The notes beneath the pieces are model-generated. The model had not been told where the DNA came from. It did not search any database and saw only the letters and a program-made list of their open reading frames with translations. Position numbers and translations under genes: made by a program. Positions 23,474 to 31,605 of a DNA stretch of 31,791 nt are shown piece by piece (position 1 is the first letter of the stretch; each line of letters starts with the position of its first letter). The stretch spans positions 1 to 31,791 of the IMG/VR virus record IMGVR_UViG_3300029309_000184; one strand, written 5' to 3'. This DNA is from a virus.

Positions 23474-24000
23474 TTGTGCTTCCTATATTTTTTCCCATCT
23501 TTTAAAATTATTTGCTCATGACCCCATTCACTTATAACTTTATATTCACTTTTATCCCCATTTGCTAAACTAATATTAGTATATGTATTAGTATTATTAC
23601 TTAGTAACTGTTCGCTAGTGGGCATGATACGATTTCCGTTGGGGTCATACTGCTGAAATTTGTCATAATTGACAACGGAAATTATCGTTACAGATTTATA
23701 TTTATGATCTCTATGTGGGTTAATAGTGGCTAATCTTGTCGTAATCATTCGTTTTCTTCTCAACCTTTGGATGAAAGCTCTCATACTAGAATAAGGCATT
23801 TTCCAAATTGATGCATTTTTCCTTATTGGGAATATTAATTCAGATCTTTTAACAAATACAGGATTTTCCATAAATTTAAGTTCTTTATCTTTATGGGATG
23901 CATTTGAAACAATATATAGCCATATTGCTGACTCAATTAGATTCTTAAAAGCTGGATGTCGCCAAACACTACGAAAAGCGAGGAAATATCCTGATTTCAT
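23440..24000 (-). CDS. Replisome organiser / replication initiator-like protein
   Basis: 186 aa. GYFLAFRSVWRHPAFKNLIE and AIWLYIVSNASHKDKELKF, then FPIRKNASIWKMPYSSMRAFIQRLRRKRMITTR, then SVVNYDKFQQYD are the consecutive landmarks of phage replication organiser/DnaD-like winged-helix proteins: a W-containing first helix, a wing of short strands, the SxRxFLQRL-type recognition helix and INYxxYQ. A low-complexity linker and a basic C-terminal segment (KYRKHKWKNI) follow. It may load host replisome proteins at the phage origin; no phage polymerase is present. It lies in the leftward early region, near the putative origin. Confidence 0.7.
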   Translation of the reverse strand: MKSGYFLAFRSVWRHPAFKNLIESAIWLYIVSNASHKDKELKFMENPVFVKRSELIFPIRKNASIWKMPYSSMRAFIQRLRRKRMITTRLATINPHRDHKYKSVTIISVVNYDKFQQYDPNGNRIMPTSEQLLSNNTNTYTNISLANGDKSEYKVISEWGHEQIILKDGKKYRKHKWKNIPLELIK

Positions 24001-24266
24001 TCTAGCATCCTTTTTACCTTCTCCAATAATTCTTGTTCAGTTCCGAATCTTTTGATAAATTCCTTTTTTCCTAAATGTATTGAGATCTTGCCCAAGCGAT
24101 GATGAGTTGGGCAAAGTGGAATGACATCCATATCAGAACTTCTTTGCCCCATTCCTACATTAAATCTTGGATGATGAAGCTCCGGAATAGCTCCACAACA
24201 GATACATCCTAGATCTGCTACTGATCTCATATAATCTTTTACTTTTTTAGATCTGTATCTGCCCAT
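23997..24266 (-). CDS. HNH nuclease, Ref-like
   Basis: 89 aa. The order is RSVADLGCICCGAI (Cys21, 23, 24), ELHHPRFNVG (His31, His32), MDVIPLCPTHHRLGK (Cys52, His55, His56), ISIHLGKKEFIKRFG (His64). This layout of two Cys pairs, a LHH motif, a PLCxxHH and a SIHxGKxxFxxxFG tail is that of the Ref family, whose founder in phage P1 is a RecA-dependent HNH nuclease. It may process recombination intermediates and fits the exonuclease and SSB-like genes on the other strand. All metal ligands I would expect are present. ATGA overlap with the replication gene. Confidence 0.75.
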   Translation of the reverse strand: MGRYRSKKVKDYMRSVADLGCICCGAIPELHHPRFNVGMGQRSSDMDVIPLCPTHHRLGKISIHLGKKEFIKRFGTEQELLEKVKRMLE

Positions 24267-24511
24267 AAAGTACTTTGATTTTTATCAAACGGTTTCCAAT
24301 GATAATAATATAAGATATTTGATTTTCCATTGAATTTATCAGGAACATTAATTGTCCTAATAGGTTTATCTAGTTGCGTATAAGCAACTATCATAAAATC
24401 CTTCTTATATTGTAATTTTAGATCTTCTTTTAACTTTATACAAAGATCCACATATCTGCCTTGTACTGCTATGAGATTTCCATATAGACTTTTTATTTCT
24501 TTAGTTAGCAT
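24239..24511 (-). CDS. First gene of the leftward unit, unknown
   Basis: 90 aa. N-terminal helix (LTKEIKSLYGNLIAVQGRY), a basic middle and aromatic stretch (SNILYYYHWKPFD), ending TLWADTDLKK. No Cys-His signature or membrane segment. It is the first gene downstream of the divergent control region, and its 28-base overlap with the Ref-like gene suggests coupling. Its ribosome site (AGAAGGGAAAAATG) lies right behind a 24-base palindrome whose loop can pair with it. Function unknown; early timing is inferred. Confidence 0.6.
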   Translation of the reverse strand: MLTKEIKSLYGNLIAVQGRYVDLCIKLKEDLKLQYKKDFMIVAYTQLDKPIRTINVPDKFNGKSNILYYYHWKPFDKNQSTLWADTDLKK

Positions 24512-24522
24512 TTTTCCCTTCT

Positions 24523-24546
24523 GTGCCGTTGAGGGAACAACGGCAC
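24523..24546. promoter_or_regulatory. 24-bp palindrome in the leader of the leftward unit
   Basis: GTGCCGTTG pairs perfectly with CAACGGCAC around a six-base loop. It lies 11 bases before the ATG at 24511. Read on the minus strand, the loop TTCCCT is exactly complementary to AGGGAA in the ribosome site that follows. It could therefore act as an RNA switch, or as a DNA operator for a dimeric XRE repressor. A strict pseudoknot would be cramped (only three bases between stem and partner), so partial melting or an operator role is just as likely. Confidence 0.6.
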
Positions 24547-24547
24547 T

Positions 24548-24630
24548 CGTTTATTTAAACATAAAAGGATAACTAAAAAATAACTAAAAAACTTTAATTC
24601 ATTAGTTGTTCTTTTATATCCTTTTAAACG
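24548..24630. repeat. Nested inverted repeat with tandem 11-bp direct repeat
   Basis: Blocks CGTTTA, AAAAGGAT and AACTAA on the left (24548-24576) are mirrored by TTAGTT, ATCCTTTT and TAAACG on the right (24602-24630), with different spacers. Between them ATAACTAAAAA occurs twice in tandem (24569-24579 and 24580-24590). This sits in the AT-rich gap between the two divergent units, so it is a candidate operator array or origin element. No experiment supports either. Confidence 0.5.
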
Positions 24631-24701
24631 AATCATAGCAATAATATATACGAATCGCTAAAAATAATCACTATATTTTCTAATTTGACTTGAATCATAG
24701 C
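24630..24701. repeat. Direct repeat GAATCATAGC, two copies
   Basis: GAATCATAGC occurs at 24630-24639 and 24692-24701, with a partial third copy (GAATCGCTA) at 24652. Spacing of the two full copies is 62 bases. Short direct repeats in a divergent promoter region suggest repressor sites or iterons; the copies are too few to be sure. Confidence 0.4.
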
Positions 24702-24735
24702 TCTAAAAACCTTGATTTTATTGAGTTTTTTGATA

Positions 24736-24764
24736 TTGACTTTTCAACCTGAATTTGAGAATAT
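24736..24764 (+). promoter_or_regulatory. Candidate early rightward promoter
   Basis: TTGACT at 24736-24741 resembles a sigma-70 -35 box. Seventeen bases further on lies GAATAT (24759-24764), a weak -10. This places a start close to the ATG at 24774, leaving a short leader for the preferred ATG at 24804. It is the best match I see between 24680 and 24800, but the -10 is poor. Confidence 0.35.
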
Positions 24765-24803
24765 TTTTAGAATATGAAAATAAAAACTAACAAAAGGGAA
24801 AAA

Positions 24804-25127
24804 ATGACTAAAAAAACGATACTAGATGACTTTGAATATATTTATTTCTTTGAAGATGATGGAATTTTAAGAGGAGTTCCAAAATATAAAGGTGTAAAAT
24901 ATAACAAAGATCAAAAACAAGATATAAAATTAGCTATAAAGAAAAATGGTTATAAATTTTATACTGTTGGCGATGATGATGATAGCCCAAAAAATTATGG
25001 ATATTATTTTGGTAAGAATCATAATGGAAAATCGGATATTGATTTTCAACCTTTAGACTTTGCTATGGCAGATGCTGGTGATGTTTATTTGTTTTATTAT
25101 GAAAATAACAAATGGAGTCAACTATAA
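24804..25127 (+). CDS. First gene of the rightward unit, unknown
   Basis: 107 aa from the ATG preceded by AAAAGGGAAAAA, the same ribosome-site style as the first leftward gene; an in-frame ATG at 24774 has no such site. MTKKTILDDFEYIYFFEDDG and many Asp/Tyr residues (GDDDDSPKNYGYYFGK) make an acidic protein, possibly a DNA mimic or host-takeover factor. No named domain. The stop overlaps the next ATG (TAATGA). Function unknown. Confidence 0.6.
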   Translation: MTKKTILDDFEYIYFFEDDGILRGVPKYKGVKYNKDQKQDIKLAIKKNGYKFYTVGDDDDSPKNYGYYFGKNHNGKSDIDFQPLDFAMADAGDVYLFYYENNKWSQL

Positions 25128-25558
25128 TGAAAAAAAGAAACTTTAAAATAGCAAGTTGGTTTATTAGAGAAGAATTAGAGCATAAAGTTACTATTTCTTA
25201 CGATAATGAATCTGAAAGATCTTATGATCTTTTAAAAATTATGTTAGCAAAATATTGGAAGATAGATAACAGAAGATCTTTTAACAATATTGAAGTAACA
25301 GAAGAAGAATATCAAACTTGGTATGTATATTTTTTAGAATATTACATTGATGAACAATCTATATTTGTAAATTCTAAAGAAGAAAAAGAATCTAAAAGAC
25401 TTCTAAAAGCTATGAAGAAATTTTTTGGAAATCCAAATTTTGATATGGATCATAGAGCTGGATCTAAATTAAGATTTGTAAGATCTATGGTTAAATATAT
25501 GGGGACAGAAAAAGCAGAAAAAGTAGCAGAAGGGTTAAAGGATCAATGTCTAAATTAA
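25127..25558 (+). CDS. Early protein of unknown function
   Basis: 143 aa. The start at 25127 is chosen over an ATG 15 bases earlier because it overlaps the previous stop (TAATG) and is preceded by GGAG. It begins MKKRNFKIASWFIREELEHK and is helical and charged (KESKRLLKAMKKFFGNPNFD). No Cys, no membrane segment, no known motif. It overlaps the next gene by 13 bases. Unknown early function. Confidence 0.6.
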   Translation: MKKRNFKIASWFIREELEHKVTISYDNESERSYDLLKIMLAKYWKIDNRRSFNNIEVTEEEYQTWYVYFLEYYIDEQSIFVNSKEEKESKRLLKAMKKFFGNPNFDMDHRAGSKLRFVRSMVKYMGTEKAEKVAEGLKDQCLN

Positions 25559-25803
25559 TTTTAGGAACAAAACACTTTGATTTACTTAAAGATGCTAAAA
25601 AGAAATTTGGTGTGGTATTCCACCCAAATACTCCGATATTTAAAATCGGAAATACAATAGAGAGGTTATATGCAACTAAATACGGTAAAAAACCTCAAAC
25701 AATCTCAACAATACTTCAGGACAACAGATCGGATCAGGAAGGTAAAGGAAATGTTGAGAAGATTGGAAGCAAAGAAAAAGAATCTAGCTTTCAAGATGTT
25801 TGA
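25546..25803 (+). CDS. Early protein of unknown function
   Basis: 85 aa. MSKLILGTKHFDLLKDAKKK followed by VVFHPNTPIFKIGNTIERLY suggests a compact alpha/beta domain, with a charged tail rich in Lys, Glu and Ser (EKIGSKEKESSFQDV). The front half looks conserved-type (LGTKHF, GNTIERLY), while the tail looks disordered. No catalytic signature is evident. It lies between early genes with a 30-base gap to the lipoprotein. Confidence 0.5.
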   Translation: MSKLILGTKHFDLLKDAKKKFGVVFHPNTPIFKIGNTIERLYATKYGKKPQTISTILQDNRSDQEGKGNVEKIGSKEKESSFQDV

Positions 25804-25833
25804 GACTAAAAAAATATAATAGAAGGGAACATA

Positions 25834-26112
25834 ATGATAAAAAGGATAACAGGGATAGCGCTATTACTGACTTTATTAAACGGATGTGCATCATATTCGC
25901 CTATTATAGACACTAATGGCAGATCTAAATTTGAAACATCAAACGCAAAAGAAATTACAAATGATAAAATTCTTTGCAAGAAATTTGCTAAAGATAACAC
26001 TTCATTTTTTGGGAATACTATATTTTGGATATTAAGCCCTAGAGCTGAAAGTCAAACAACAGATATTACTAGAAAATGTTTAGAAGGACGCAATCACTCA
26101 GTAATGAATTAA
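25834..26112 (+). CDS. Small lipoprotein
   Basis: 92 aa. Signal peptide MIKRITGIALLLTLLNGC with lipobox LNGC, Cys18 lipidated. The mature part YSPIIDTNGRSKFETSNAKE, then NDKILCKKFAKDNTSFFGN, and finally ITRKCLEGRNHSVMN is a family I recognise in marine bacteria and their phages: YxPIIDxxGRS, EITND, CxxxAKDN, CLxGRxHSVLN. It should sit on the periplasmic side, perhaps blocking superinfection. The gene has AGAAGGGAA as ribosome site, like the first genes of both units. Confidence 0.75.
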   Translation: MIKRITGIALLLTLLNGCASYSPIIDTNGRSKFETSNAKEITNDKILCKKFAKDNTSFFGNTIFWILSPRAESQTTDITRKCLEGRNHSVMN

Positions 26113-26121
26113 AGGATGATT

Positions 26122-26445
26122 ATGAATGATATTAAAGAAGTAAAAAGAAGAATCGCTGAATTAAGAGAAAAACATCATTTAGATCCAAACGATGAATCTA
26201 TTGTAAATTCTCTTATTGGAGCAAGAATAAGATTTGTACGATTGATTAGAGGTAAGACTCAAACAAGAGTAGCAAATGCGATAGGAGTTACATTTCAGCA
26301 GATCCAAAAGTATGAGAAGGGATCTAATGGAATAAGCACTCCTAAATTAATGAAAGCATCTAAATATTTGAAATTTTCTTTTAAATGGATGTTTTCTGTT
26401 TTTAAACATAAAGAGGTAGAAAACGATGAAACCGTTAATAAATAA
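26122..26445 (+). CDS. XRE-family HTH transcriptional regulator
   Basis: 107 aa from ATG 26122, which has AAAGGA seven bases upstream; an ATG six bases earlier is too close to that site. The helix-turn-helix (about 33-90) begins GARIRFVRLIRGKTQTRVAN and includes AIGVTFQQIQKYEKGSNGIS. The signature VTFQQIQKYEKG...IS is common to alphaproteobacterial and phage XRE repressors. There is no peptidase domain, so it would not be cleaved by RecA as CI is. It may repress the divergent region at 24.5-24.8 kb. No integrase is present, so a lysogenic role is doubtful. Confidence 0.85.
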   Translation: MNDIKEVKRRIAELREKHHLDPNDESIVNSLIGARIRFVRLIRGKTQTRVANAIGVTFQQIQKYEKGSNGISTPKLMKASKYLKFSFKWMFSVFKHKEVENDETVNK

Positions 26446-27208
26446 GCAAGGCAAAAATATACAATACAATCCTAAAGCTTTTGGAAAAAGATATATGGTT
26501 GATGGAGAACCTAAATCATCTGTAACAACTGTAATAGGAAATCATCAAAATAAAAATGGATTATTATTTTGGAAAAGAAAAATGGTCTTGGATGGATTAA
26601 AGAATGTTTTGATCTCCCAAAAGAAACCTATTGATGAAATAAATAAACTAATAAAGAAGGTTGAATTATCAACTAATGAACTTGAAGAATATGCGAGAGA
26701 TATAGGAACTAATCTTCACGAATGGATAGATCTATATGTAAAAGGAAAGAAACCGGCTATTCCTAATTCTGAACCATTAAAAACTATGGTTAATAAATGG
26801 CTCAAATGGTGGAAAGCTTCTAAACTAGAGATAGTTGAGAGTGAGCTTCCTTTATATAGTTCTAAATATGATCTTGCCGGTACTTTAGATTTGATAGTTA
26901 CTCAAAAATCTTGGAAGGGTAAATTAGCTCTTCTAGATACAAAAACTTCTAAAGACTTTTATGTAGATCAAGCAATACAGATTGAAACATATAGAAGATT
27001 CCTAGAAGAAACAACCGACTTTAAAATAACATATTTAGGAATTGTTAATGTTCCTAAAGAACCATCAAAACAAGTTTCTATGATGAAACTTAAAATAGAT
27101 GATGCTTATTTTAGAGGATTCAAAGCTTCTAAATATTTGGAAGGTCTTGAATCTAAATTTAACGATAAAGTAAAAAAATGGAAGAAGGAGAATAAACGAG
27201 ATGTATAA
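26426..27208 (+). CDS. PD-(D/E)XK exonuclease, RecB/Cas4-like
   Basis: 260 aa. Expected order of motifs: SVTTVIGNH in the first third, RDIGTNLHEWID (91-102, with His98), SELPLYSSKYDLAGTLDLIV carrying Asp155, then ALLDTKTSK with Asp171 and Lys173, and QIETYRR (185-191). These are the catalytic residues of the PD-(D/E)XK superfamily as seen in RecB-like phage exonucleases. It overlaps the XRE gene by 20 bases and the SSB-like gene by eight. It probably resects DNA for recombination or repair. No iron-sulphur cysteines are present, unlike Cas4. Confidence 0.82.
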   Translation: MKPLINKQGKNIQYNPKAFGKRYMVDGEPKSSVTTVIGNHQNKNGLLFWKRKMVLDGLKNVLISQKKPIDEINKLIKKVELSTNELEEYARDIGTNLHEWIDLYVKGKKPAIPNSEPLKTMVNKWLKWWKASKLEIVESELPLYSSKYDLAGTLDLIVTQKSWKGKLALLDTKTSKDFYVDQAIQIETYRRFLEETTDFKITYLGIVNVPKEPSKQVSMMKLKIDDAYFRGFKASKYLEGLESKFNDKVKKWKKENKRDV

Positions 27209-27674
27209 AAAAGAAAAACTACCTTTTGTTGCATTATCTTATAAACTATTTTCAACAGGAAGAAAATCACCTCAATTTGAATTTAGTGTAAGAGCAACGA
27301 ATGTAAAATTAGAATGTTCTATAACTAAAAAGAAATATAGATTTTCAGAAGTCTTAAAATGGTGGCAAACTCCGGAAATACAAAAATATGCAAATGATGG
27401 ATGGGAATTGTATATAGAAACTAAACAACAAGAACCTTTTAGACAACCTAAATATGGCGAGAATCTAGAGGAGATTGTTTGTTATAGAATGAAAAAACCT
27501 TATCAGAAAAGAGGGAATCTAGGTACATTTAAGACCATAGAACAAAGTGTTCCTTTTGTTCCTCAACAATTTGCTCCGGATCACGCAGAACCCGTTACTA
27601 AAAATGATTTGGATGATATGGATGATAAGATTCCATTAGAAGGAGATAGCGATGAGTGGAACAATCAGTTCTAA
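27201..27674 (+). CDS. SSB-like protein with acidic tail
   Basis: 157 aa. The first 100 residues are beta-rich and basic, with aromatic residues (QFEFSVRATNVKLECSITKK, LKWWQTPEIQKY, GWELYIETK) as in OB-fold DNA-binding proteins. The C-terminus is strongly acidic and ends in Phe (DDMDDKIPLEGDSDEWNNQF), like the protein-binding tails of single-strand binding proteins. Its overlap with the exonuclease supports a joint role in recombination or replication. The SSB call rests on tail, context and beta pattern rather than a recognised SSB signature. Confidence 0.55.
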   Translation: MYKKEKLPFVALSYKLFSTGRKSPQFEFSVRATNVKLECSITKKKYRFSEVLKWWQTPEIQKYANDGWELYIETKQQEPFRQPKYGENLEEIVCYRMKKPYQKRGNLGTFKTIEQSVPFVPQQFAPDHAEPVTKNDLDDMDDKIPLEGDSDEWNNQF

Positions 27675-28032
27675 TATTGATGCATTAACTTTTGATAGAA
27701 AAAAAATTAATGCTCTTCTTGATTCAGTATCAAAATCTTTTACAGGAGCTTATGCTCATCTAAATGATATGGAAGATAGAGTTAAAAAAAAACACGCAGA
27801 ATTATATACATCTTTAAAAACAGATGCAACCAAGAGATCTGCTGAAGAAATAAAAGCTCTTATTATTACTGATGCTTCAATGGATGAATTATTAAAAGAA
27901 CTTTCTGATGCAAAAACAAAACATTTGCATTGGAAAGTTGAATGGGAAAAGTTGAAAACAAAGATTATGCTTTTACAAAGTGAAGTAAGACAGAATATTG
28001 AATTTAACTCATTATCAGGGAAATATGAGTAA
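27652..28032 (+). CDS. Coiled-coil early protein
   Basis: 126 aa, almost entirely helical: RKKINALLDSVSKSFTGAYA, then KTDATKRSAEEIKALIITDA and a heptad-rich end (AKTKHLHWKVEWEKLKTKIM). It overlaps the SSB-like gene by 23 bases. Helical proteins following an exonuclease and SSB sometimes help recombination, but I cannot name a family. Unknown function. Confidence 0.55.
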   Translation: MSGTISSNIDALTFDRKKINALLDSVSKSFTGAYAHLNDMEDRVKKKHAELYTSLKTDATKRSAEEIKALIITDASMDELLKELSDAKTKHLHWKVEWEKLKTKIMLLQSEVRQNIEFNSLSGKYE

Positions 28033-28058
28033 CAAAATTTGCATAGAAATATGTAAAT

Positions 28059-28119
28059 AGTAGGTGTAGTTGAAAACTTCCCTAGGTTAGTCTTTATTTG
28101 ACAAGTTGCTACACCTACT
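28059..28119. other. Structured inverted-repeat element
   Basis: AGTAGGTGTAG (28059-28069) pairs perfectly with CTACACCTACT (28109-28119). Inside, AACTT (28075-28079) pairs with AAGTT (28103-28107) across a small asymmetric bulge, leaving a 23-base loop that contains CCCTAGG. The element fills the gap after the coiled-coil gene and before the 36-aa gene. It is not a tRNA (no T-arm consensus) and has only a short T-run on the plus strand, so a terminator role is weak. It may be a regulatory RNA, processing signal or protein site. Confidence 0.5.
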
Positions 28120-28133
28120 TTAAAAATTGAATT

Positions 28134-28244
28134 ATGATGATATTTGGAAAAACAAAAAACGATTGGAAAGCCCTAGAGCTTCATTATAGAAGGGAATGGA
28201 TCTGTTTTGTTGTAGGATTTATTCTTGGATCTATAATATTCTAG
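28134..28244 (+). CDS. 36-aa membrane microprotein
   Basis: ATG at 28134 (a second at 28137) opens a 36-codon frame: MMIFGKTKNDWKALELHYRR, then EWICFVVGFILGSIIF. The last 16 residues are a transmembrane helix, and the first 20 are basic. Small proteins ending EWxCFVVGFILG are familiar to me from marine phages, so I regard it as probable. Its stop codon overlaps the stop of the convergent gene by four bases, the junction of the two transcription units. Role unknown; a holin-like or exclusion peptide is possible. Confidence 0.5.
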   Translation: MMIFGKTKNDWKALELHYRREWICFVVGFILGSIIF

Positions 28245-28498
28245 TGTCTTGTAATCTCATAATCTTTTAGATCATCATTAGCTTTGATGGGTCTATAAGT
28301 TATTTCATAATCTAGTAATATTAATCCGTTAGTTTCAAAGTTTTTGAGGATCTCTGTTTTATGTTCAAAGCTTGGAAATTTATCAATATAAGAAATAGAT
28401 ATAGCTCTTCCTAAAGCTTCATCTTCATTTAAAGGAGCAAAGAAAAATTGTGCATCTACAAATATATAATCATTATGATTCATAATTAGTTTTACCAT
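28241..28498 (-). CDS. Last gene of the leftward unit, unknown
   Basis: 85 aa. MVKLIMNHNDYIFVDAQFFF begins a compact, mostly beta/alpha protein (GRAISISYIDKFPSFEHKTE), ending YEITRH. An internal ATG six codons in is a possible alternative start, and no clear ribosome site decides. It ends the leftward unit four bases into the convergent gene. No recognised motif. Confidence 0.5.
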   Translation of the reverse strand: MVKLIMNHNDYIFVDAQFFFAPLNEDEALGRAISISYIDKFPSFEHKTEILKNFETNGLILLDYEITYRPIKANDDLKDYEITRH

Positions 28499-28516
28499 AT
28501 ATGAATCTGTTGTGTA

Positions 28517-28894
28517 TTATTTTTTCTTTATAGCTGATACTCCACGAATACCAAGAATAGTACTGAAAGCTCCTATAACTAATCCTTGATACCAAAAAGG
28601 AAGGTTTTCAAATTTTTCAAAGAAATAATCTACTCGCTCTTGTAAAGCTGGATCTCCAAAAAATACAGAATATGCTAAAATCAATAAAGGCAAACTTAAT
28701 AAAATTAAACAAAATTCATCCTTTAGATCTGAGCTCATTCTTTTGTGTTCTATTTTTTTTAATTCTACTTCACCTTTACAAGCTCGTTCTAAATATTTTA
28801 CTTCTGCTTCTGATTCTAATACCTGAGCTCTTTTCTTGTTTTGATATATTTGAGCTCCTGTCTTTAATGCTAATTTACCTAATGTGAACCACAT
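28517..28894 (-). CDS. Holin-like membrane protein
   Basis: 125 aa from ATG 28894, chosen because GGAG lies seven bases upstream; the longer frame starts TTG with no such site. The N-terminal half is a cytoplasmic helix rich in Glu and Lys (LESEAEVKYLERACKGEVEL). Transmembrane helices lie at about 61-79 (CLILLSLPLLILAYSVFF) and 101-119 (WYQGLVIGAFSTILGIRGV), followed by KKK. Two to three hydrophobic segments and a basic end fit a holin of the 3TM type found near marine phage endolysins. In lysis it would release the M15 endolysin, which lies about 2.2 kb upstream. Confidence 0.7.
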   Translation of the reverse strand: MWFTLGKLALKTGAQIYQNKKRAQVLESEAEVKYLERACKGEVELKKIEHKRMSSDLKDEFCLILLSLPLLILAYSVFFGDPALQERVDYFFEKFENLPFWYQGLVIGAFSTILGIRGVSAIKKK

Positions 28895-29145
28895 TTTAAC
28901 TCCAATGCCAACTCGCAATAATGTTTAATTTTTTCATATCTTTCTCTATCACTTTCAAATTCTTTTTTTCTTACAGCATATTTCAAAATACATCCATCTA
29001 TAAAATCAAGCTTATGGGCAACAATCAACTGAATCGGCTCTATTTTTGCGTTTTTGTAGTGAGAGCCACCTATCTGCTTATCTAGAGCTGAACCCCTCTT
29101 AAAACGCTTTATTTTAGCTTCTAGAGGGTCTTTTTTGTCCGTCAT
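28879..29145 (-). CDS. DUF3310 protein
   Basis: 88 aa. DKQIGGSHYKNAKIEPIQLI is followed by FIDGCILKYAVRKKEFESDR and IKHYCELALEL, the characteristic run of DUF3310: GGxHY, IxPxxxI, NxxxKYxxRxxxK and a helix. T7 gp1.7, a nucleotide kinase, is related to this family, but I cannot say this protein has that activity. Its position among lysis genes is not typical and suggests a separate metabolic role. Four-base overlap with the phosphoesterase. Confidence 0.75.
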   Translation of the reverse strand: MTDKKDPLEAKIKRFKRGSALDKQIGGSHYKNAKIEPIQLIVAHKLDFIDGCILKYAVRKKEFESDRERYEKIKHYCELALELKCGSH

Positions 29146-29840
29146 ACTATCTTCTTAATCCAATTGCCTTTATTATTCAAGACCATAGGTAAAAGCCGTG
29201 GGATTCCATCTAATATTATTCCACAACCCAAAATGAACCTTGTACGAAAATTCTTTGCGTAGCTCATTGAAAGAGATTTTTGATTTATTAAACATCCTAC
29301 ATTCATTCCCCAAAAGATTGCATCAGGATTAGCCCAATATTTTACCGTGAACGCCGTATGGTAATGCCCCTGCGTTACGTTCATTCCCATAGTTTGCGAT
29401 ACTTTTAAAACATCAGCAGATCTACCATGTGTAAAAAAACATTTTTGTCCGTTTGACATTTTAAGAGTTAGATCATCTATCCATTTCCATTTCTTCGTTC
29501 CAAGAAAGTCTCCATAATCTTTTAAAAATTGACGACTCATTCCAAACTTTACAGCTCTTCTATAAACAAGACTAGAATGATTACTATCTACTTCAATCAT
29601 TTTTGGAAATACAGATTCTAATTCTTTGATATATTTTTTTGAAGCATTTAATTCATGTCCGGGTGAATAAAGATCCGGATCGTGTGTATGCATATTGATT
29701 GCGTGAAAATCTAAAAGATCTCCAATGTTTACAATGAAATCAGGTTTAAATTCTTTTTTTATACATTTTAAAAACTCTATTGAGTCTTTGTGATGATATG
29801 GAATGTGCATATCTGATATAACAAGAATCCTTTTATACAT
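29142..29840 (-). CDS. Calcineurin-like metallophosphoesterase
   Basis: 232 aa from ATG 29840; a longer frame from GTG at 29930 adds 30 residues that overlap the upstream gene and look unstructured. Metal-binding motifs are complete: SDMH (9-12, D10 and H12), GDLLD (40-44, D41), SNHSS (86-90, N87 and H88), THGRS and GHYHTAF further on. This is the standard order of metallophosphoesterases that act on nucleic acids, nucleotides or phosphoproteins. A phage-encoded member could remove phosphates from DNA ends or host signalling nucleotides. The ribosome site is weak. Substrate not identifiable. Confidence 0.85.
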   Translation of the reverse strand: MYKRILVISDMHIPYHHKDSIEFLKCIKKEFKPDFIVNIGDLLDFHAINMHTHDPDLYSPGHELNASKKYIKELESVFPKMIEVDSNHSSLVYRRAVKFGMSRQFLKDYGDFLGTKKWKWIDDLTLKMSNGQKCFFTHGRSADVLKVSQTMGMNVTQGHYHTAFTVKYWANPDAIFWGMNVGCLINQKSLSMSYAKNFRTRFILGCGIILDGIPRLLPMVLNNKGNWIKKIV

Positions 29841-29875
29841 AGTACACTTATAAAGGGAAATGTGAATAAAAGCAA

Positions 29876-30073
29876 CTAATTGAGAACTGTGTAGAGAAGG
29901 TGTGTTACTGCAATCAAACAGATCGTCCACATAACTTTTTCCATTCTTGAAACTCTTAAATCTAAATGATGTAAATGATTTCCACGAATAGTTTGAATCT
30001 CGTGTTTTAGAAGTGCTATCTCACCTTCTATACGGATTAAATGTTCTTTATTTTTTTGACTTGATGTTGCCAT
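29876..30073 (-). CDS. Small coiled-coil membrane protein, XhlA-like
   Basis: 65 aa. Residues about 8-45 are a coiled coil (RIEGEIALLKHEIQTIRGNH) and residues about 48-64 form one C-terminal membrane helix (VMWTICLIAVTHLLYTVL). This build (tail-anchored coiled coil of about 70 residues) is like XhlA-type proteins that help holins. It sits between the basic cluster and the phosphoesterase, in the lysis area. It may assist holin function. Assignment by architecture only. Confidence 0.6.
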   Translation of the reverse strand: MATSSQKNKEHLIRIEGEIALLKHEIQTIRGNHLHHLDLRVSRMEKVMWTICLIAVTHLLYTVLN

Positions 30074-30077
30074 AAAA

Positions 30078-30341
30078 TTATCTTCTTTTTCTTTTAATAG
30101 CTCTTCTTACTATATCTTTATCAAAAGTGCTAGATCTTCCTCTAGCGATCATTTTGTTGACTCTGCCCATTGACCAAGCCGCCATAGAAACTCTCCTTGA
30201 TCCCCCCCCAAGAAATGCACCTTGGCCTCTCCGATAGATGGCTTTTAGATCTGCAAAGTTAAATAGTTTTGATTTTTTTGCTTTAGCTCTTAATGTTCTT
30301 GTAGTTGAAGCTGATAGAGGTTTTCTAAATTTTCTTGCCAT
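30078..30341 (-). CDS. Basic protein, conserved type
   Basis: 87 aa, about one-third Lys/Arg. Core phrases: FNFADLKAIYRRGQGAFLGG, GSRRVSMAAWSMGRVNKMIA, and ends RAIKRKRR. The order LxxxYxRGxGA, GSRxxxSxxxWxxxRVNxFI is familiar to me from cyanophage and other phage proteins of a DUF with unknown role (perhaps DUF5824). A structural or DNA-binding role is plausible. First and largest of a run of seven basic genes. Confidence 0.6.
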   Translation of the reverse strand: MARKFRKPLSASTTRTLRAKAKKSKLFNFADLKAIYRRGQGAFLGGGSRRVSMAAWSMGRVNKMIARGRSSTFDKDIVRRAIKRKRR

Positions 30342-30529
30342 TATGCTTTTGTCCTTCTATTGAGTAGATCTCTTGGAATGAATCCACCGGATCTGTATAT
30401 AGAAGAAACTTTTCTAATGAGTCTTGCTCTTCTCATTCTTTTAGATCCTTTAAGACCTGACAGATATTTTTTAGGTAATCCTGTCTTTTTATCTTTTGGA
30501 ACGCTTTTTCTTCTTTTTTTTCTTGCCAC
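30341..30529 (-). CDS. Basic protein with GTG start
   Basis: 62 aa starting with GTG, with GGAG eight bases upstream. MARKKRRKSVPKDKKTGLPK, then KYLSGLKGSKRMRRARLIRK and GGFIPRDLLNRRTKA. TGLPKKYLSGL resembles a motif in basic phage and giant-virus proteins of unknown function (TGxPKKYxxGL). More than 40% of the residues are Lys or Arg. It is overlapped in another frame by the 37-aa gene upstream. Likely nucleic-acid binding; function unknown. Confidence 0.6.
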   Translation of the reverse strand: MARKKRRKSVPKDKKTGLPKKYLSGLKGSKRMRRARLIRKVSSIYRSGGFIPRDLLNRRTKA

Positions 30530-30602
30530 TTCTTCTTCTCCGTTTCATAGGAAATTTATCTATCATTTCCCTTAAAGTTGTTGTTGTTGTAAATCCACTC
30601 AT
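30489..30602 (-). CDS. 37-aa polybasic microprotein
   Basis: ATG at 30602 follows GGGAGAG by five bases and overlaps the previous stop (TAATG). The translation is MSGFTTTTTLREMIDKFPMK, then RRRRSG, seven Lys and RSKR. A small ordered head carries a tail of nearly pure Arg/Lys. The tail is encoded in the same 41 bases as the start of the 62-aa gene, in another frame, so the polypurine stretch encodes two basic tails at once. I judge it real because of its ribosome site and coupling, but the overlap leaves some doubt. Confidence 0.5.
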   Translation of the reverse strand: MSGFTTTTTLREMIDKFPMKRRRRSGKKKKKKKRSKR

Positions 30603-30763
30603 TAAGCTCTCCCACCATATTTTCTAGACTTAACTTTCTTTCCTTTAAACTTCCCTGATTTTCTTGGAAGTAATCCTCTTGCTACTGCTGAAGCTCTCTC
30701 TGTTGCTCCAAGTCTTTTTTTATTTCTTATCTTGTTTTTTAATAAAGATAATTTAGGTTTCAT
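30602..30763 (-). CDS. Basic 53-aa protein
   Basis: ATG at 30763 overlaps the previous stop (ATGA), and the stop TAA overlaps the next start. Reads MKPKLSLLKNKIRNKKRLGA, then TERASAVARGLLPRKSGKFK and GKKVKSRKYGGRA. Clean 53-codon frame with no competing frame. Lys/Arg-rich with one short Ala-rich helix. Probably nucleic-acid or virion associated; no name for the family. Confidence 0.65.
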   Translation of the reverse strand: MKPKLSLLKNKIRNKKRLGATERASAVARGLLPRKSGKFKGKKVKSRKYGGRA

Positions 30764-30942
30764 TTTCCAGTATTCTTAAGTGCAATTCTGTGAGCTTGAG
30801 AAAAATTTTTTCCCTTTTTCATAGCTCTAGCCATAGATCTCATATGTTTCAAACTATGATGTTTTGCGTGTGATCTCATAGTTTTTTGTTGTCTAGGTTT
30901 AAGATCTTTAATTATATTCTTTATGGATGCTACTTTAACCAT
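30760..30942 (-). CDS. Basic His-rich 60-aa protein
   Basis: 60 aa: MVKVASIKNIIKDLKPRQQK, then TMRSHAKHHSLKHMRSMARA and MKKGKNFSQAHRIALKNTGK. The SHAKHHSLKHMRSM helix and the KGKxFSQAHxxAxKxxGK end recur in small proteins of marine phages as I remember them. High in Lys, His and Met. Possibly a metal- or DNA-binding factor or a small virion component. Chained by overlap to genes on both sides. Confidence 0.65.
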   Translation of the reverse strand: MVKVASIKNIIKDLKPRQQKTMRSHAKHHSLKHMRSMARAMKKGKNFSQAHRIALKNTGK

Positions 30943-31013
30943 TATCTTTTCTTTTTACCTTTTTTCTTTTTTTTCTTTTTCTTTTTAGTCATTCCACCGT
31001 AGTGATAAGGCAT
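30942..31013 (-). CDS. 23-aa polylysine microprotein
   Basis: ATG at 31013 overlaps the previous stop (TAATG), and its TAA overlaps the next ATG. The peptide is MPYHYGGMT followed by nine Lys, Gly, three Lys and Arg. The aromatic head MPYHYGGM is very like the MPY-G starts of small proteins in marine phages. It is the shortest gene proposed here; the chained TAATG junctions on both sides support it. Confidence 0.5.
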   Translation of the reverse strand: MPYHYGGMTKKKKKKKKKGKKKR

Positions 31014-31111
31014 TATTTCCTCGCTTTCTTTTTTTTAGTTTGTTTCTGTTTTTTCAATATAGCTTTTTGTAAAGCTAAAGGCAATTTCTTTTGTTTCTTT
31101 GTTAAAACCAT
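31013..31111 (-). CDS. 32-aa basic microprotein
   Basis: ATG at 31111 overlaps the endolysin stop (TAATG). Reads MVLTKKQKKLPLALQKAILK, then KQKQTKKKKARK. An amphipathic helix (LPLALQKAILKK) with a basic tail, like an antimicrobial or membrane-active peptide. It is directly behind the endolysin gene, so a part in lysis is conceivable. No family known. Confidence 0.5.
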   Translation of the reverse strand: MVLTKKQKKLPLALQKAILKKQKQTKKKKARK

Positions 31112-31605
31112 TATGCTACTACCACTCCCTTCTCCCAATTCATATCAGGTAATCCATTCAAATAATCAGATCCATCATAAGTCATAACTTGTTTTCTATT
31201 TGATCCTTTTTCATTATAACTAACGTGTATCCAACCACTATTAATATCTTGTTTATTTTTAGGTTTCCAAAATTCTAAAATTAATTGATCAAAATCACAG
31301 TTGTTTTGAATCCAATAAGCTACTTTAATATTTGGAACTCCGAATATTTCAAAATCCGCCGCTTGACCTTTTGCGTGTTGACTCGTCTTTTTGCTACCGA
31401 TAGCTTCACATAATTCTTCACTTCTATATCCTGAAGTTATTGTAACTGATTTATCAAAATGATTTCTGACCGGCTCTAATACACAATAACATAGATCTTC
31501 AAGATTTTTTATATCACCTGATCCGGGTGTATTATCTATACCTTTTCGGATAGCCGTCATTGACTTTGTAAATTCTTCTAATTTAAAATGTTTTGATAGT
31601 TGCAT
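31111..31605 (-). CDS. Endolysin, M15-type peptidase
   Basis: 164 aa. SGYRSEELCEAIG (58-70) precedes SQHAKGQAADFEI (75-87) with zinc ligands His77 and Asp84, and GWIHVSYNE (124-132) gives His127. This is the Peptidase_M15_3 signature of L-alanyl-D-glutamate or D-alanyl-D-alanine endopeptidases, cutting peptide cross-bridges in the wall. No signal peptide, so it needs the holin. All ligands are present. It has a good GGAG ribosome site (GGAGATTTAATG) and opens the downstream run of basic microproteins. Confidence 0.9.
   Translation of the reverse strand: MQLSKHFKLEEFTKSMTAIRKGIDNTPGSGDIKNLEDLCYCVLEPVRNHFDKSVTITSGYRSEELCEAIGSKKTSQHAKGQAADFEIFGVPNIKVAYWIQNNCDFDQLILEFWKPKNKQDINSGWIHVSYNEKGSNRKQVMTYDGSDYLNGLPDMNWEKGVVVA

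Follow-up and report, generated by a model that had tools for sequence, protein, structure and literature searches.

The 61-nucleotide (nt) stem-loop at positions 28059 to 28119 is a real hairpin with a stability beyond chance, and it separates two genes that abut or overlap in closer relatives of this phage. Our preferred explanation, to which we assign a probability of about 40%, is that the element is a cis-acting intercistronic RNA hairpin that serves as a new leader of the micro-gene following it. The hairpin, which belongs to one small clade of marine viruses akin to SAR11 phages, probably tunes the micro-gene or the end of its transcript.

Fold and genomic setting of the hairpin

The window, that is, the whole stretch of 31,791 nt under analysis (record G000, 32,052 bases), is akin to the Pelagibacter phages HTVC202P, HTVC112P, HTVC026P, HTVC111P, and HTVC010P and is a relative of this group. 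Its rightward operon is short (24.8-28.2 kb). Near 24.6 kb this operon and the leftward genes are divergent, and at 28241-28244 it converges with leftward genes. The element is flanked by gene P0001 and a 36-codon gene near the 3′ end of this operon, 122 nt ahead of the convergent overlap; with a conserved open reading frame (ORF) of 36 amino acids (aa) downstream, it is one gene short of the operon's end and not beyond the last gene. The roles put forward for it in the initial annotation, namely a small RNA, a processing site, or an element at the end of the early transcript, are all candidates. Compared with L003, L004, and L006, window positions 24000-31600 fall into blocks of unequal identity, some with 0 and others with over 20 differences per 100, of the sort seen in mosaic phages. 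The features of the region are as follows.

27652..28032 (+): upstream gene P0001, the last before the element
28038..28057 (+): small 5′ hairpin TTTGCATA-GAAA-TATGTAAA, directly 5′ of the element
28059..28119 (+): the 61-nt stem-loop, from fold, sequence, and stem scan
28078..28083 (+): UUCCCU on the 5′ side of the element's loop, the same hexamer as in the loop of the leftward-leader hairpin
28120..28133 (+): 14-nt spacer from the element to the micro-gene start, with no Shine-Dalgarno sequence by the pattern used and no U-tract
28134..28244 (+): micro-gene P0004, 36 aa, conserved in Pelagibacter phages
28241..28498 (-): leftward gene converging on the micro-gene, the two overlapping at their ends, from the ORF list and junction folds

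The arms of the 11-bp outer stem (28059-28069 and 28109-28119) are paired at 11 of 11 positions, and a U-G pair (28070/28108) adds an extra twelfth. A one-sided bulge of 4 nt (28071-28074), an inner stem of 5 bp (28075-28079/28103-28107), and a 23-base loop (28080-28102) beginning with CCCTAGG complete the fold, in agreement with the initial annotation in coordinates and in each of these parts. The minimum free energy is -19.7 compared to -11.06 ± 2.69 for shuffled sequences (z = -3.21), with 3 of 200 shuffles equally stable. The stem is the sole perfect one of at least 11 bp (loop 8-60) anywhere in the window; 100 shuffled windows contained a mean of 1.1 such stems, and 0.06 with at least five G-C pairs. 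Among 61-nt segments taken in 3-base steps, two others on the + strand reach -19.3, so that the element's energy is no extreme outlier, and the - strand has six sites of greater stability (lowest -23.8). The inner fold is ambiguous, as AACUU can pair either with AAGUU (-19.7, pair probability 0.68) or with AGGUU around CCCU (-19.2, pair probability 0.21). An intercistronic hairpin with an asymmetric internal loop, as modeled here, would suit a phage RNase III site.

Five phage records contain the micro-gene, HTVC010P accounting for two of these, and no separate CDS for it stands in the gene tables of HTVC202P, HTVC111P, HTVC010P (KC465898), and HTVC034P. Its product appears membrane-like in our reading of its hydrophobic tail. 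Compared to L009 and L010, the dN is 0.087, with a dS of 1.4 against the former and 1.1 against the latter, values that indicate a gene under purifying selection. A pattern test of the window's starts found no Shine-Dalgarno sequence before the micro-gene; of the 60 starts tested by the same pattern, 28 were without one, the micro-gene's included, so that the lack is a common one here. Because of its dN/dS values, the micro-gene is very likely still translated despite having no visible Shine-Dalgarno sequence.

Several other identities of the element were considered. ARAGORN found 0 tRNA or tmRNA genes in the window, which bears out the initial annotation's view that the element is not a tRNA. 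Rfam 15 gave 0 matches in the window at the gathering score, and on 27980-28260 at E up to 5 it gave one sub-threshold match, at 28190-28230, and none for the element. A dispersed repeat (MITE or REP) was rejected, since at an E limit of 0.001 the element's own record gave 1 match. A host element was rejected as well: the six hits of a stem-pattern scan came from Ktedonobacter (2), Spirosoma (2), Saprospiraceae, and a planctomycete bin, with none titled Pelagibacter. On the stem pattern, these bacterial hits were judged to be due to chance, and with R1 not one of them reached E 1. Integron attC sites carry GTTRRRY boxes, and this identity was rejected on reading the element's sequence against them. 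Finally, the idea that the coding region of the micro-gene extends back across the element was rejected, as a TGA stops the frame in the window; in L002 the frame through the element is open, with a TTG start.

The position of the element also suggests a role in ending transcription of the rightward operon, or in protecting the 3′ end of its mRNA, near the convergence of the two operons. We consider such a role unlikely. It would be consistent with the short distance to the convergent overlap and with an 11-bp hairpin bearing a CUCUCU loop at that junction in HTVC111P, HTVC202P, and L020, which is a possible bidirectional terminator. Folds of -19 or better were also found near the junction in L011, L018, and L020. 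These hairpins and folds are listed below.

L077:31388-31427 (-): 11-bp CUCUCU-loop hairpin at operon convergence
L075:32039-32074 (-): 11-bp CUCUCU-loop hairpin at operon convergence
L020:5996-6035 (+): 11-bp CUCUCU-loop hairpin at operon convergence
L011:5759-5819 (+): stable fold (-22.7) near the convergent junction, element-free
L018:5739-5788 (+): stable fold (-19.2) near the convergent junction, element-free

However, folds of -19 or better were absent near the junction in 14 of the 17 element-free loci examined, in a scan that began at 28061, off the exact frame of the element, and a conserved gene lies downstream of the element. Moreover, neither strand carries a U-tract (the tails are UUAAAAAUUG on the + strand and AUUUACAUAU on the - strand), and the element is absent from the 4 sites returned by a terminator scan. 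An intrinsic terminator was rejected, in line with the earlier description of the element as not a good terminator.

Distribution among related phages

Scans of IMG/VR with the exact stem, the exact loop, and partly relaxed patterns returned the same four contigs, and in the four pattern scans altogether the element was found only in these. It occupies the same place in each of them, always 14 nt before the micro-gene. Across the window and the four contigs there are 0 substitutions in 61 nt, and the sole difference is one inserted bulge base; the spacer of L002 is equal in length to that of the window and differs from it in 5 of 14 letters. We compared 24 records with a micro-gene match (the window, 20 IMG/VR contigs, and 3 isolates; tblastn E up to 0.01, with the micro-genes of the window, HTVC010P, and HTVC111P as queries). 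The element is present in 5 of the 24, window included, and absent from 19, six of which have weak micro-gene matches near E 0.001 (L017, L021, L024, L025, L027, and L028).

In the closer element-free relatives, the start of the micro-gene lies directly next to the upstream stop or overlaps with it, in most cases after a purine run, as in L008-L010 (GGAGGGATAATG) and in HTVC202P, HTVC010P, and HTVC111P; the junction before the micro-gene reads GGAGGAATAAATG in HTVC034P. In the clade with the element, the hairpin and the 14-base spacer, which has no Shine-Dalgarno sequence, take the place of this junction. Because 5 of 24 records carry the element and 19 do not, and because the upstream gene abuts the micro-gene in closer relatives, the element is, by this comparison of genomes, a clade-specific insertion. 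Its absence from 19 of 24 records also indicates that it is not essential.

Two accessory genes are found between P0001 and the element in L002 and L006.

L002:2663-3565 (+): two accessory genes beside the element, with a CxxCxxCC motif in one of them

The window shows what reads as a deletion remnant of these genes at about 28026-28057, with the element kept, and the letters of 28038..28057 correspond in L002 to the last codons and the stop of accessory gene b. A search for relatives of gene b gave just the two known contigs, plus a partial match to a Rhizobium phage, and gene b could be placed in no Pfam family; the accessory gene with the CxxCxxCC motif had no Pfam match. The neighborhood of accessory genes in two contigs, together with the restriction of the element to one clade and to the same four IMG/VR contigs, would fit a passive scar, in which an inverted repeat arrived with the accessory genes as a mobile or recombination relic and has no role in the transcript. 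We regard this explanation as quite unlikely, since the element has one match in its own record, no target-site duplication was visible by eye, and the intact stem with its unsubstituted 61 nt stands against the five changes in the adjacent spacer.

The initial annotation had named the lack of a transcript or of conservation, along with a stem broken in relatives by non-compensatory changes, as evidence against the element. The stem is intact in 4 of the 4 contigs carrying it. Its letters are invariant in the clade, which means that compensatory changes are absent as well and that covariation cannot test the structure of the element. Differences within the clade amount to 0-6 per 100 in the DNA just downstream of the element and up to 21 per 100 in P0001 upstream, and the identity of the element within the clade suggests constraint weakly.

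The explanation that we prefer, a new leader hairpin of the micro-gene, starts from what is directly observed, namely the insertion and where it lies, the disappearance of the abutting or overlapping junction of the closer relatives, and the purifying selection on the micro-gene. The stem-loop would have been gained in the rightward transcript within the insertion between P0001 and the micro-gene. The hairpin would fold once transcribed and would part the micro-gene from upstream translation. The new 5′ leader, 14 nt ahead of the AUG, may act as a structured barrier or as a point of processing by an enzyme such as RNase III or RNase E, and synthesis of the peptide, encoded near the end of the early transcript, would be set at a level of its own. 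In addition, the UUCCCU may serve as a brake of the anti-Shine-Dalgarno kind, a function that the leader hairpin of the leftward genes also appears to have.

Leader hairpins of leftward genes

Hairpins in the leaders of leftward genes include the following.

24523..24546 (-): leftward-leader hairpin GTGCCGTTG-TTCCCT-CAACGGCAC, before gene 24511..24239
L009:2605-2632 (-): leader hairpin of the first leftward gene, with only 4 letters matching the Shine-Dalgarno sequence
L012:2078-2101 (-): leader hairpin of the first leftward gene, whose loop can pair with the Shine-Dalgarno sequence just downstream

The loop of the window's hairpin is complementary to AGGGAA, the Shine-Dalgarno sequence of gene 24511..24239. 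A 43-codon ORF (24505..24636, -) runs through this hairpin and the HTVC202P counterpart sits inside the annotated gp12, so that "leader" is our own reading only. Similar hairpins are found in HTVC111P and HTVC202P. L009 and L012 have other stems, with the loops TTCCCT and CTCCCT, respectively. Loop and site match as CCUCC/GGAGG in L011, CUCCCU/AGGGAG in L016, CUCUCUC/GAGAGAG in L030, UCUCUCU/AGAGAGA in HTVC111P, and UUCUCUC/GAGAGAA in HTVC202P. Over 15 leaders, which were hand-picked and of differing types, with near copies (L003, L006, L010, L029, L032, and others), L013, and L026 left out, the mean complementary run was 4.8 compared to 4.1 for permuted pairs (equaled in 410 of 20000) and 3.9 for shuffled loops (equaled in 3 of 5000). 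The leader starts for L009, L010, L020, HTVC202P, and HTVC111P were read by hand and not taken from the automatic gene start, which gave no start for L019. A second, A+T-rich hairpin lies upstream of the leader hairpin, in corresponding positions in the window (24562-24626, -) and in L012 (2117-2176, -), with 10 and 12 bp.

The element might accordingly be an anti-Shine-Dalgarno or operator copy tied to the leftward operon, acting through a shared RNA-binding protein or through pairing in trans with AGGGAA starts, an explanation that we find doubtful. The early leftward leader hairpins have changed stems and loops complementary to their own Shine-Dalgarno sequences, and the complementarity exceeds both controls, as this explanation would have it. 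Hairpins with the same pyrimidine word occur in both places, with UUCCCU in the window and CUCUC(U) in HTVC111P, HTVC202P, and L020, where CUCUC recurs in the leader loop (the L020 leader, with a stem of 6-7 bp, was identified by eye). However, both hairpins are present in only two lineages, and 7 of the 15 leaders (L009, L018, L020, L022, L024, and both of HTVC026P) match by four letters or fewer. When duplexes were ranked, the leftward leader did not enter the top 10 of the window's 61 starts, compared to 5th of 58 in HTVC111P and 2nd of 55 in HTVC202P. UUCCCU arose in the shuffled 39-nt interior of the element in 124 of 20000 single-letter shuffles (0.6%), but in 1541 of 20000 dinucleotide shuffles (7.7%). 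The pattern of pyrimidine-loop hairpins in both the leftward leader and the rightward-operon end is suggestive and unproven. We consider it improbable that these hairpins form a two-site RNA circuit in this Pelagibacter phage group, in which the leftward leader and the end of the early rightward transcript would share one anti-Shine-Dalgarno word (UUCCCU for the window's lineage, CUCUC for HTVC111P, HTVC202P, and L020) and the early hairpin would be a decoy or antisense for the switch opening the leftward operon.

A scan of the relatives' hairpins found others, of 55-63 nt, in the 5′ leader of one leftward gene in other phages. Of the 20 stretches from a pattern scan, 13 were of the L024 kind, one of them truncated where its contig stops, and 7 lacked the stem. 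Six distinct full sequences are represented among the 13 hairpins.

L024:1834-1894 (-): L024-type leader hairpin, outer-stem covariation
L029:1860-1920 (-): L024-type leader hairpin, outer-stem covariation
L055:6903-6963 (+): L024-type leader hairpin, outer-stem covariation
L061:1344-1406 (-): L024-type leader hairpin, outer-stem covariation
L062:1375-1429 (+): L024-type leader hairpin, outer-stem covariation
L065:6458-6513 (+): L024-type leader hairpin, outer-stem covariation

Both sides changed in 5 of the 11 outer-stem pairs, which 5 of 500 shuffles reach, and the covariation score was 0.260 compared to 0.151 (0 of 500 shuffles); the number of further pair types did not exceed chance (278 of 500). 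In the middle helix 62.5% of cells were paired, the inner helix is invariant, and the conserved loop region is TGAAAATCTCCC. The gene after these hairpins looks, in our reading, like one for a winged-helix protein. In the predicted fold, the flanks can pair across the hairpin and mask the Shine-Dalgarno sequence and the AUG.

The L024-type hairpins resemble the element in their length, their 11-bp outer stem, a GAAAA-(N)2-TCCC(C)TA-(A)-GGTT loop region, and a place shortly before a start codon, but they belong to another operon and another gene, and masking of the Shine-Dalgarno sequence and AUG is possible in them. Such masking by pairing around the hairpin is absent from the fold of the window's element; for the L001/L002 type, a short fold gives 5 A-U pairs around the hairpin, and a longer fold places the AUG in a separate weak hairpin. 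The loop region GAAAATCTCCC(C)TAAGGTT is near the GAAAACTTCCCTAGGTT of the window's element, and local scores between element and L024 types were as high in 36-110 of 20000 shuffles per pair. A covariance model built from the L024 types only found the element as its best match in the window, and a weak one (16.0 bits, E 0.084, filters off); over 46 sources (473 kb), the same model gave E 1.3 for the window and E 0.36 for L002, below the reverse strand of true members. A search for bridging sequences (TTGAAAAN{1,3}TCCCTAN{0,1}GGTT) yielded 23 stretches with 9 new loci (L080-L088), none of which had an element-like outer stem or reached E 1 or better with R1. A kinship of the element with the L024-type hairpins is unproven by these comparisons.

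Significance and comparison with known systems

SAR11 phages are highly abundant in the sea, and their regulatory RNAs are little described. By word search, two pelagiphage papers (PMC12753301, PMC9599517) contain none of the words "noncoding", "non-coding", and "terminator". The phages compared here provide a natural experiment, in which one conserved micro-gene is found with and without an inserted leader hairpin. Furthermore, the loop-to-Shine-Dalgarno matches suggest that the main phage operon is controlled at the RNA level.

The early region of phage T7 contains RNase III sites (R0.3-R1.3), which are hairpins of about 60 nt between early genes of a lytic phage. Like these sites, the element is intercistronic and combines a lower stem, an asymmetric internal loop, and an upper stem. 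Unlike them, it is a single site as noted here, known as a predicted fold, with an upper stem of 5 bp, and 19 of 24 related records are without it. The T4 gene 32 and ribosomal protein S15 leaders contain pseudoknots. These are similar to the window's leftward leader, in which a hairpin loop could pair with a nearby ribosome-binding site, whereas the element differs from them in that no Shine-Dalgarno sequence is seen downstream. Bulged-hairpin RNA motifs have been described in Candidatus Pelagibacter ubique at the host loci ffh and rhtB (PMC2704228). The element lies at a phage locus and has no Rfam match; it shares with these motifs the form of a single bulged hairpin and the SAR11 setting.
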